Origin: Argopecten irradians
Lineage: Eukaryota > Mollusca > Bivalvia > Pectinida > Pectinidae
Assembly: GCF_041381155.1 (NCBI RefSeq)
Contig: NC_091135.1
Coordinates: 67,173,067 to 67,237,066, forward strand
DNA: 64,000 bases
Direction: 5' to 3'
Part shown: positions 29,999 through 62,900 of the stretch, in pieces
Layout: every line of letters starts with the position of its first letter
Position numbering within the stretch: the stretch's first letter is position 1
Notes under the pieces: model-generated
Databases searched by the model: none
What the model saw: only the letters and a program-made list of their open reading frames with translations
What the model was told of the DNA's origin: nothing
Translations under genes and position numbers: made by a program

Positions 29999-32900
29999 CT
30001 GATAACAAGGGTTTGTGAATTTTACTCTCTCTTTACAACACATACAACTTAAATTACAAACAAAACTTTGATATCATGTGTACAGAAGACAGCACCATAA
30101 ATAGATACATGGCTAAATGTATTTTACTGTGTTAACACCCCTCCCTTACAAAGTTAATGCTACTCTGTCTAGGAGGGAATTGGACTTGTACCCCTTGTGG
30201 GTGTGAATTAGCACCCAAAAGCCATCATGAGAGAACAACATTACTACCCACAGTCACTTGCCTGGTATGATTATAAATGTTCTATACAATTACACAATTA
30301 TATATATTTTTCAATAAATCCATGGCAATTTCTAAATTCAATCAAGTACTGTTCATACAATTTTATCTTCTGTACACTTATCTCTTGAAATTTGGTTTAG
30401 TTTGATCTTTGTTTGACCACTGAAACCTAATTTACAAGCGTTTGATCTTGTCAAGATCTTTGGTGAGAGTACTCACTTTGTCAATCAGATCTTTCTTCTC
30501 GGTCAGTAGGGCCATTGTCCGATCATAACATTTGGATACAAGGTCTCGCACTTCCTCGTCAATGATCATAGCTGTTTTCTCACTGTAGGGTTTCAGGAAT
30601 GATTGCTGTTCCTGTTCGAAAGCTATCTGTCCAATCTTTTCGCTCATACCCAACAACGTCACCTTCAAATAAAATCATAATCATATCAAAACGGATTCTT
30701 AACACTTCATTTAAACATAAAAAATCAACTTGTTCAATTATTAGCTTGCAGCCAGTGGAATTATTTTTCATTATCTATCCTAGATTTTTTCATCTCAATG
30801 CTATGAAATTGCCCAATGAAACACTTCAAACTAAAGAAAGGTGGAAAAATGATCAATGAAACACTTCAAACTAAAGAAAGGTGGGAAAATGATCAAGGAA
30901 ACATAGAACATTTCATGGAAAAATAATCAGTGAAACAATTCAAACGATAGTAGATCAAGTGTTTTAAGTTAATACAAATTTACATGTATCATAAAATTAT
31001 GGATATCTGTTAATAAATACTGAGATTTTTTTTAAAAATCAACACATATAATGTCTTCTCATTTATTGTTGAAATGTACCAGCTACTGGAATGGCTTCCT
31101 TTGGTGTACTCTTTTAAAGCATTTAGAATTATTTTTAATACTTAAAACATAAGGTCAAAGTTAATCTTGTTCTGGAAAACACTCAATCTAATTAAAATTA
31201 GATCGTCTATGTCGCTCTCCGTAGACTGTCCGCTTCTATGAGCGGACAGTCCACTGACAGCAACATAGACGATCTAATTTTAATTAGATTGGGAAAACAC
31301 TAAAATTCAACACATTTTCTTTGATGTGCTTGCTATTATGGTCAAGATCAGAATAATCTCAGGTGATACAAATGTACAGCAGGAGCAAGAGCAAAACCAG
31401 AATTTGTATACCTACAATAAAATCCCTTCATCTGAAGAGGAGACTTTCTGTTCCCAGAAGTTATTCCAGAGACTAACCTGAGAATAAATTCCAGAGACTA
31501 ACCTGAGAATAAATTCCACAGACTAACCTGAGAATAAATTCCACAGACTAACCTGAGAATAAATTCCAGAGACTAACCTGAGAATAAGCCATTTTGGTCA
31601 CCTTCTGCAAATCATCTTGTGCACCTGATGTGATTTTATCAAAGAAGATTTTTTCAGAAATTCTTCCTCCAAGTAATGTGCACATTCTGTCAATAATCTG
31701 AAAATGTAACAGAATACATCCTGTCAAATATCTCCAACTGTTGTCAACATAAATTGTGTCAGACCAATTTAATGTACAAAAACTTCAATGGAAGCACAGT
31801 ATTTTTCTATCGGTAATTGTTTTCCATGATGGTACTTGGGTAAAGCACATAAAATTTATGTTTTTTTTTTTCATTTTTTCATCATGCAATATTTTTCACA
31901 ATCATCTGTTCTTGTGTCGTTAGGTAGTGTTCCTGTGGTGAGTACATTATTACATACCTGTACCTGTGACATTAGATAGTGTTCCTGTGGTAAGTACATT
32001 ATTACACACCTGTTCCTGTGTCATTAGGTAGTGTTCCTGTGGTAAGTACATTATTACATACATGTTCTTCTGTCATAAGGTAGTGTTCCTGTGGTAAGTA
32101 CATTATTACACACCTGTTCTTGTGTCATTAGGTAGTGTTCCTGTGGTAAGTACATTATTACATACCTGTTCCTGTGTCATTAGGTAGTGTTCCTGTGGTA
32201 AATACATTATTACATACATGTTCTTGTGTCATTAGGTAGTGTTCCTGTGGTAAGTACATTATTACATACCTGTTCCTGTGTCATTAGATAGTGTTCCTGT
32301 GGTAAGTACATTATTACATACCTGTTCCTGTGTCATTAGATAGTGTTCCTGTGGTAAGTACATTATTACAAACCTTTTCTTGTGTCATTAGGTAGTGTTC
32401 CTGTGGTAAGTACATTATTACATACCTGTTCTTGTGTCATTAGGTAGTGTTCCTGTGGTAATTACATTATTACATACCTGTTCTTGTGTCATTAGGTAGT
32501 GTTCCTGTGGTAAGTACATTATTACACACCTGTTCCTGTGTCATTAGGTAATGTTCCTGTGGTAAGTACATTATTACATACCTGTTCCTGTGTCATTAGA
32601 TAATGTTCCTGTGGTAAGTACATTATTATACACCTGTTTTTGTGTCATTAGATAGTGTTCCTGTGGTAAGTACATTATTACACACCTGTTCCTGTGTCAT
32701 TAGGTAATGTTCCTGTGGTAAGTACATTATTACATACCTGTTCTTGTGTCATTAGATAGTGTTCCTGCGGTAAGTACATTATAACCTACCTGTTCTTGTG
32801 TAATTAGATAGTGTTCCTGTGGTAAGTACATTATTACATACCTGTTCCTGTGCCATTAGGTAGTGTTCCTGTGGTAAGTACATTATTACATACCTGTTCT

Positions 32901-59900: not shown

Positions 59901-62900
59901 TTGCTTACTCACCAGTCCTTTACTCAGGTAATTGCTTACTCACCAGTCCTTTACTCAGGTAATTGCTTACTCACCAGTCCTTTACTCAGGTAATTGCTTA
60001 CTCACCAGTCCTTTACTCAGGTAATTGCTTACTCACCAGTCCTTTCCTCAGGTAATTGCTTACTCACCAGTCCTTTACTCAGGTAATTGCTTACTCACCA
60101 GTCCTTTACTCAGGTAATTGCTTACTCACCAGTCCTTTACTCAGGTAATTGCTTACTCACCAGTCCTTTACTCAGGTAATTGCTTACTCACCAGTCCTTT
60201 ACTCAGGTAATTGCTTACTCACCACCAGTTTTTTTCCTTCTCAGGTAATTGCTTACTCACCAGTCCTTTACTCAGGTAATTGCTTACTCACCAGTCCTTT
60301 ACTCAGGTAATTGCTTACTCACCAGTCCTTTACTAAGGTAATTGCTTACTCACCAGTCCTTTACTCAGGTAATTGCTTACTCACCAGTCCTTTACTCAGG
60401 TAATTGCTTACTCACCAGTCCTTTACTCAGGTAATTGCTTACTCACCAGTCCTTTACTCAGGTAATTGCTTACTCACCAGTCCTTTACTCAGGTAATTGC
60501 TTACTCACCAGTCCTTTACTCAGGTAATTGCTTACTCACCAGTCCTTTACTCAGGTAATTGCTTACTCACCAGTCCTTTACTCAGGTAATTGCTTACTCA
60601 CCAGTCCTTTACTCAGGTAATTGCTTACTCACCAGTCCTTTACTCAGGTAATTGCTTACTCACCAGTCCTTTACTCAGGTAATTGCTTACTCACCAGTCC
60701 TTTACTCAGGTAATTGCTTACTCACCAGTCCTTTCCTCAGGTAATTGCTTACTCACCAGTCCTTTACTCAGGTAATTGCTTACTCACCAGTCCTTTACTC
60801 AGGTAATTGCTTACTCACCAGTCCTTTACTCAGGTAATTGCTAACAAACTCCTTGTAAGAGATCTCTTTCTTCTGTTGTGCCATTAATGATCCTAATAAT
60901 ATGACAGCAGCAAAGGCCCCAAACAGAGTAAACAACAGAGATGGGCTGGGCTCTTTACTGTAAGGGAAGAAAATGAGAATAAAATAAAAATGTAATAATA
61001 GCCATCCAAATGTCAATTGTCCAAGTTTGAACAAAACTGATGCCATGATCATGACCACCCAGTTATTTGCCATATTACAAAACCTGTATAAAGTGACCTG
61101 TTACTATTGCAACAAATTATAAACAAAAAATCTAGATCTTACTTCACATGGTCCCCAATAGAATTGTGATCAAAGTTCATAGAAATTGGTTCAATAGTTT
61201 ATGAGGAGTAGTGCAGACAAGATTCAAACTGATGACAAGACAAGGAAATTCCAGTATACAGTCGACATCCCCAACTTCAGTGCAGGAAGTATACTAATGA
61301 TTATGGTCAGCCAGTTTTAACAACAAGAATTCCACGGAAGTGAATGTGTCGCCTGCACAGCAATTTAAAACATCACAGAAAGAAATGGGATAATAAACAC
61401 AAAAGTTATTGAGCAGAAACCAAGAAATTATCTGTTTGATGATTTTAAAATCCTGTAACTCTTGCAAATATTAATGGATTTTTACCAGAATCAAGCCCAT
61501 CCAAGATCTCATTGATATGAAGAAATTTTTGGTTGAAATCAGACAATAAAAATACTAAAGTCATAGAGCGGAAACCATGGATTTATCTGTTTTGACGATT
61601 TAAAGTCTTTTCACTCTTGCAAATATTGAGATTTTCATCAGTATCCAACTCATCCCAAATCTCATTGATATAAAGTAATATACCAAATTTGGTTGAAATC
61701 AGACAATAAATAATGAAGTTATCGCACCGAAACCTTTTAATTTTCTCGGACGCCGATATAGTGATACCTATATGTCCCCCTTACATTGCAGGCGACACAA
61801 AAATCATTACGAAATACAAATGCACTGATCTATGAAATGTGAAAATAATTAAACTTTGAATAAACAAGAGGCCCATGGGCTTTAACGGCAAACTGATATT
61901 TGATACATATTAGTTATGTCATTAATAGCCAGCTGATGTTTTTTGTTCACAAAATAGGAACATACATCTAATAGGTCTACATACAAAGTTTCAGTAAGCT
62001 TGGTGCATATTTACTCAAGTTCTGTTCACAAGGTTCAATAATTATAATTGCAAAGGGTATTAACTCTGTAACAGAGCTCCAGATAAAATTTTAGGTCAAT
62101 GGGTTTTTACCCCCTATTTTTTTTTTTACTCAATGCTGATTTTACTCCTTGATTTTTTTTCCAGTGCTGAATTGAACATTCCAAAGGATATTTTACTCTT
62201 GTGTGAATACTTTTAATGCTGATTTTGGCTTGTTTTTGTAAAGGTTTTAAAGTATATTATATTAGACTGTGTTTATTCATATATTTATCACATATATATA
62301 TGTGTTAATATTATATAAATATGTTTGATTTCTAAACCAATCTAGTTTTTGTCTAATAAAATATATATTTGTAGGAAAATATTAAATATACGCACAAACC
62401 TGAAATCAATGGTTTATTTTCATTTTACAAAATCAGTAAACTGATAAACTGAAAGGTCTGGTGTTATTAGAGTTCTTACAATACCAATTTGAAAACAATC
62501 ATAGTTCTTGTCACTAAAATATATTTACTGATTTGTGTTGTATTTGCACCATTCAGATTTTGCAAAGTTAGTTACGATCTTCTAACTCATCCCAGATCTT
62601 TCCAATTTTAGTCTAAATGCAAAGTTACATGAAACTCAGGTCATATTTACTCAAGTTAATGTGTGGTTCACAAGGTCCAATAATAATTATAAGTGCAAAG
62701 GGCAATAACTTCGTAAATTACCGTCTAATCAAGCTGATTTTCAGACTGCTCCAAGATATTTTAAATGTTAGTCTGCATACAAAGTTTCATTAAGCTCAGT
62801 TCATATTTACTCCAGTTATTGTATTCACAAGGTTCAATAAACATTACTGCAAAAGGCAATAACTCCGTAAAATACAATTGAATCAGGCCGATTTTCGAAC

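Follow-up and report, generated by a model that had tools for sequence, protein, structure and literature searches.

Five exons of a single scallop gene end in tandem arrays that span their own splice donors. The gene lies in a stretch of 64,000 nucleotides of the Argopecten irradians genome (RefSeq assembly GCF_041381155.1, contig NC_091135.1, positions 67,173,067 to 67,237,066 of the forward strand), which we call the window and whose positions are used throughout. It is an m-AAA protease gene of the AFG3L2 type, and at exons 2, 5, 11, 13 and 14 the end of the exon, together with its own donor (the 5' splice site), is the first copy of a minisatellite that continues into the intron. We think it probable, though far from certain, that these arrays are scallop counterparts of the 'mirages' of lancelets, that is, five independent tandem duplications across donors that were tolerated and then grew as neutral minisatellites.

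Structure of the arrays

Arrays were located with Tandem Repeats Finder (TRF) and by direct reading of the sequence, and their copies were aligned to the unit with the donor in register. The exons and arrays concerned are listed here; copies that reach the donor include the exon's own.

60819..60957, minus strand: exon 2, an open frame similar to P0001
58305..60842, minus strand: array 2, a 31-bp unit in about 82 copies, made of the last 24 nt of exon 2 and 7 nt of intron 2 (GTGAGTA); GT intact in 80 of 82 copies reaching the donor
56858..56915, minus strand: exon 5, placed by frame
56783..56884, minus strand: array 5, a 39-bp unit in 2.6 copies, made of the last 27 nt of exon 5 and 12 nt of intron 5; GT intact in 2 of 3 copies reaching the donor
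44909..45029, minus strand: exon 11, its frame broken in this assembly, compared with relatives
41323..44927, minus strand: exon-proximal part of array 11, a 48-bp unit made of the end of exon 11 (about 31 nt) and about 17 nt of intron 11
38424..41322, minus strand: interruption of array 11, 2.9 kb of other DNA
35907..38423, minus strand: exon-distal part of array 11, 48-bp unit; GT intact in 127 of 129 copies reaching the donor over both parts
34498..34578, minus strand: exon 13, placed by frame
31906..34539, minus strand: array 13, a 52-bp unit in about 51 copies, made of the last 42 nt of exon 13 and 10 nt of intron 13; GT intact in 49 of 51 copies reaching the donor
31578..31697, minus strand: exon 14, placed by frame
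31463..31587, minus strand: array 14, a 25-bp unit in 5 copies, made of the last 10 nt of exon 14 and 15 nt of intron 14; GT intact in 5 of 5 copies reaching the donor

In all five arrays copy 1 is the exon end itself with its own donor, the unit spans an exon-intron boundary of the gene in which it lies, and the copies carry the splice signal. The GT dinucleotide is intact in 263 of the 270 copies that reach a donor, the five authentic donors counted. The exon copy of array 2 is identical to the unit across its 24 exonic nt, and the third copy of array 5 is without a donor owing to an 8-nt gap. The interruption of array 11, which is perhaps a mobile element, holds a 146-bp satellite (39214-40941, about 12 copies) and, at its low end, a 67-nt inverted repeat (38425-38573). 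Short homologies at the founding ends, found by eye, are TCCTTA at exon 5 and TTGAA at exon 11, and measure at most 3 nt at the other three exons.

The units of the five arrays are mutually unrelated in sequence. A comparison of array units with exon ends had been proposed in an earlier note on this DNA; applied to this gene, it bore out the expected match for four of the five units, for which the unit's own exon was the best match and scored above all 30 shuffles (26, 28, 18 and 34), whereas the second-best exons scored about as high as shuffles. The margin was narrowest for the 48-bp unit, at 18 versus 14 for the second exon. The comparison failed for the 25-bp unit of exon 14, which has 10 exonic nt and was neither the best match to its own exon nor above the shuffles. 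Array 14 is assigned to exon 14 because the exon end is physically copy 1, that is, by contiguity and not by sequence match. No other TRF array with a unit of 15-180 bp had a convincing exon match, and three of them slightly outscored the best of only 30 shuffles: a 21-bp repeat that lies outside the gene, at 6422 (14 versus 11), a 38-bp repeat in intron 9 (15 versus 14) and a 31-bp repeat in intron 7 (15 versus 13).

The earlier note had described five donor-linked arrays in a gene that is open except in exons 10-11, and both TRF and the sequence itself agree with it in this; its copy numbers were right to within a copy or two. It had further read the unrelated units as one kind of process at several donors independently, a view that the unequal divergence of the arrays from their exons also supports. 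Its description of the unit as an exon end plus its own donor holds, but the exonic part is 10-42 nt and not 10-39 nt. The arrays, which it had beginning exactly at the 3' ends of exons, are indeed at the ends of these five exons, but by TRF they start 9-41 nt inside them.

The gene itself occupies the minus strand between about 63.5 and 29.8 kb of the window. The closest protein, the best among 120 matches listed of 8000, is the AFG3-like protein 2 of Pecten maximus, with 86% identity over a best local alignment that covers 52% of the query, in which exons 10-11 are given as X; the best match in the PDB is 6nyy, also AFG3-like protein 2. An open frame fitting AFG3L2, with GT donors and AG acceptors, is present in 14 of the 16 exons in the window (1-9 and 12-16). 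The start of exon 1 is uncertain, and exons preceding this 'exon 1' fall beyond the window. No near-identical protein was seen among the 120 matches listed of 3659 for a query of exons 12-16, or among the 120 listed of 8000 for a longer query of the gene. Exons 10 and 11 (44909-45251) show several frame-breaking differences from their relatives. They form a short unique island flanked by two large arrays, so a consensus error is a plausible source of the breaks.

Excess of arrays at donors

Thirteen TRF arrays in the gene entered a count of donor-spanning arrays; their units measured 21-62 bp, all of them had 2 copies or more, and nine had at least 2.5. Satellites of 146-155 bp, nested TRF rows, units below 15 bp, a 21-bp repeat within the insertion in array 11 (40951-40998) and a repeat at 63491, which precedes the exon 1 donor, were left out. 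Under the null model the founding unit is placed randomly in the collapsed gene, not wholly in an exon, and spans one of 15 donors with a probability of 0.03-0.04; the exon 10 donor was assumed to lie near 45150. Among arrays with at least 2.5 copies, five of nine span a donor when 0.33 would be expected (P = 6.6e-6), and among those with at least 2 copies, five of 13 do so when 0.42 would be expected (P = 3.4e-5); with the satellites kept, P = 3.2e-6. These values come from one gene that was picked post hoc for its striking look, and they are valid for this gene only. None of the 13 arrays counted in the gene spans an acceptor. Two more arrays lie close behind donors, 6 nt past donor 6 and 67 nt past donor 7, and are without convincing exon similarity.

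The donors that carry arrays were compared with those that do not. In exact permutation tests of five against nine donors, a sample in which only a large difference would show, they did not differ in guanine-cytosine (GC) skew (p = 0.88), GC content (0.82), folding energy (0.83) or donor match (0.24). A cause in R-loops or hairpins, the former suggested in the earlier note, thus finds no support in this small sample.

Other repeats and genes of the window

Intron 9 (45269-46561) consists almost entirely of a 38-bp minisatellite in about 34 copies, which stops 18 nt short of the exon 10 acceptor and is not convincingly similar to any exon. The array that starts 6 nt past the exon 6 donor (56109-56265) is a degenerate, AT-rich one with a 38-bp unit and is without exon sequence. 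An 87-bp satellite fills about 9 kb (19458-28563) beyond the stop codon of the gene; it contains open stretches of up to 304 codons on the plus strand, and its similarity to the exons of this gene is only at shuffle level. An intronless gene for a Mab-21/cGAS-like receptor lies at 3196-5289; the partial protein P0121 is given as 100% identical to it over 83%, and its relatives are numerous in scallops.

History of the arrays and state of the inner donors

In arrays 2, 5 and 14 the exon copy is identical to the unit; in array 13 it differs from the unit, and in array 11 it differs more. Since the arrays differ in their divergence from the exons, they were probably formed in more than one burst. 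The unit of array 2 contains a serine codon that none of the nine compared proteins has at that site, and this array was therefore founded, or last homogenised with its exon, in this lineage. The consensus of array 13 encodes QEHYL, as in Pecten and Ylistrum, whereas the current exon 13 encodes QEQYL. Either the exon changed after the array was founded or a variant spread through the array; the variable residue is N in two other scallop species and Q in non-scallop proteins. In a lag analysis of arrays 2, 11 and 13, adjacent copies differed from each other about as much as copies far apart did, so these three arrays are well mixed and homogenised inside the cluster; arrays 5 and 14 have too few copies for such an analysis.

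We compared the GT columns with the other columns, leaving out the exon copy, in arrays 2 (80 full copies), 11 (125) and 13 (49). No significant extra conservation was found (p = 0.66, 0.44 and 0.31), so the inner donors seem to persist because the copies are young and homogenised; selection is not seen in these three long arrays, as would be the case for neutral homogenised repeats. The 9-nt donor block was noisier than random columns in array 11 (p = 0.999) and neither quieter nor noisier in array 13 (p = 0.71).

A reading frame continued beyond the authentic donor reaches a stop after 21 nt at exon 2, 57 nt at exon 13, 27 nt at exon 14 and 221 nt at exon 11, whereas at exon 5 there is no stop inside the array. 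Splicing that leaked to inner donors would therefore in most cases yield truncated mRNAs. At exons 5 and 11, where the units of 39 and 48 bp are multiples of three, leakage could add in-frame repeats.

Discussion

We suggest that the arrays were founded by five separate short duplications, each running from 10-42 nt within the exon to 7-17 nt within the intron and thus taking in the whole 5' splice site. Ordinary replication slippage or end-joining may have produced them. A donor is a short element complete in itself, which would explain why such duplications were tolerated: the donor at the exon end would still close the exon, and further copies would be removed as intron. The earlier note's proposal that surplus copies are spliced away fits here, as the arrays would be intronic if the first donor is used. 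A duplication that spans an acceptor or lies inside an exon would more often, or even usually, be harmful. Growth and homogenisation of the arrays would then have proceeded by unequal exchange, as in a neutral minisatellite, and the spliceosome may have acted as a filter that permits survival, not necessarily as the cause. An account based on a filter explains why arrays are at donors and not at acceptors or in exons, but it does not explain why they are at donors and not in the much larger interior of introns.

Several points weigh against this account of tolerated, neutral duplications. Neutral placement predicts 0.33 donor-spanning arrays among nine, and with five seen, duplications hit donors more often than they hit introns, or else this is an extreme gene among many. 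The 9-nt donor block of array 2 is quieter than random columns (p = 0.04). Moreover, GT is lost in the last copy of three of the five arrays (2, 5 and 13, at 58305-58340, 56783-56812 and 31906-31955, respectively) and is intact in the last copies of arrays 11 and 14, as against a loss in four of the 265 other copies; a hypergeometric estimate made by hand gives about 1e-4. Decay of boundary copies that escape homogenisation can explain this loss, but it also hints at selection against the donor nearest the acceptor. Finally, use of the first donor is a premise drawn from genomic sequence.

The excess over the intron interior makes the case for a donor-linked mutational hotspot, in which transcribed exon-intron junctions start tandem duplication, in scallops and independently in lancelets. 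We regard this as possible but doubtful. The two further arrays just past donors 6 and 7 are in keeping with it, as is the recurrence of such arrays in several lancelet genes. Polymerase pausing and transcription-replication conflict at the 5' splice site are possible causes of such a hotspot. Against it, the rate comes from one gene chosen after the fact and takes no account of survival bias at donors relative to exon interiors and acceptors, the donors with arrays are not distinguished from the rest in the features compared, and mirages at acceptors also occur in lancelets (PMC3087553). A broader conjecture, which we offer as tentatively, is that transcribed 5' splice sites in scallops are intrinsic birthplaces of minisatellites, in many genes and far above the intron background, through a process of duplication linked to transcription or splicing, which in lancelets would have arisen, or come to light, independently. 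Such sites would then be a lasting source from which new introns and extended exons could form.

We find it very hard to credit that selection keeps the extra donors, whether as decoys, as splicing regulators or as a source of protein variants from the two units whose lengths are multiples of three. Nearly all donors are intact, and a read-through reaches no stop within the array past donor 5 and only a distant one past donor 11, as such selection would have it, and a human minisatellite with several donors, described below, offers a precedent; however, conservation of the GT columns does not significantly exceed that of others, and the 31-, 52- and 25-bp units shift the frame and soon lead to stops. 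Mis-assembled reads could in principle have produced the copy numbers or even whole arrays. The broken frames of exons 10-11 between two arrays, with the other 14 exons open, do look like poor consensus, and one lancelet mirage was apparently mis-assembled in a genome draft (PMC3087553). Nevertheless, the five units are unrelated, array 11 is interrupted by other DNA, and arrays 11 and 13 have diverged from their exons and have variants common to their copies. An artefact that copied the present exon would be identical to it, so this divergence argues against an assembly origin, which we consider highly improbable. Much the same low standing belongs to the idea that the gene is a decaying copy, in which splicing is unconstrained and arrays persist. 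The broken frame of exons 10-11 would suit it, but the other 14 exons are open, have GT donors and AG acceptors and are similar to their scallop orthologues, and pseudogenes do not usually have their damage confined to two adjacent exons.

If the arrays are mirages, as we favour, they extend the phenomenon from lancelets to a mollusc and form the densest case in the literature examined, with five independent donors in one housekeeping gene and one array of about 128 copies. The key issue is why splice donors are struck so often. Long-read genomes make it testable whether donors are hotspots of duplication or places where duplications survive, and the gene offers a natural test of how the spliceosome chooses one donor among dozens of identical ones.

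Comparison with known systems

This kind of array has already been described. Turri 1995, to judge from its title, reportedly dealt with a human minisatellite that supplies several splice donors to an interferon-induced transcript, and the gene is said to be 6-16/IFI6. As in the scallop, the copies would provide splice donors; the difference is that a single human gene is involved.

The closest parallel is found in lancelets, whose mirages (PMC3087553, PMC3902484) contradict the earlier note's statement that no described system is of this kind. PMC3087553 describes amphioxus mirages as minisatellite-like tandem repeats over an exon-intron boundary, often with a splice signal. Those of Adh3 have units of 10-72 bp and show somatic instability, and globin mirages occur at both boundaries; in one globin cluster homogenisation has reached the interior but not the edges. 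The same paper reports that mirages leave regular splicing undisturbed and puts them forward as a way in which introns may be gained. Further lancelet genes with mirages are PGBD5 and troponin C (PMC3902484). The boundary-spanning tandem unit that carries a splice signal is common to amphioxus and the scallop. However, the amphioxus mirages, as far as these texts go, also lie at acceptors and have longer units (60-160 bp), whereas the scallop arrays are at donors only, five in one gene and with up to about 128 copies, and are known from a single assembly. Therefore, the scallop case is not new in kind; what is new is the phylum (no mirage from a mollusc was seen among the open-access papers listed), the number of donors struck in a single gene (five) and how long the arrays are.

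Tandem repeats at splice boundaries have consequences of another sort elsewhere. Internal tandem repeats in human segmental duplications average about 30 bp, and some are at exon-intron boundaries and alter introns (PMC2812944); they differ from the scallop arrays in belonging to recent paralogues, in having about four units and in giving rise to new introns or alternative transcripts. In intron gain by tandem duplication splice signals are also copied, and a case in potato crosses an intron-exon boundary (PMC4974935). No new intron was seen among the 14 placed exons, judged from the scallop gene alone. In the intron-gain systems, as that source presents them, a new intron arises, whereas in the scallop existing introns have been lengthened.

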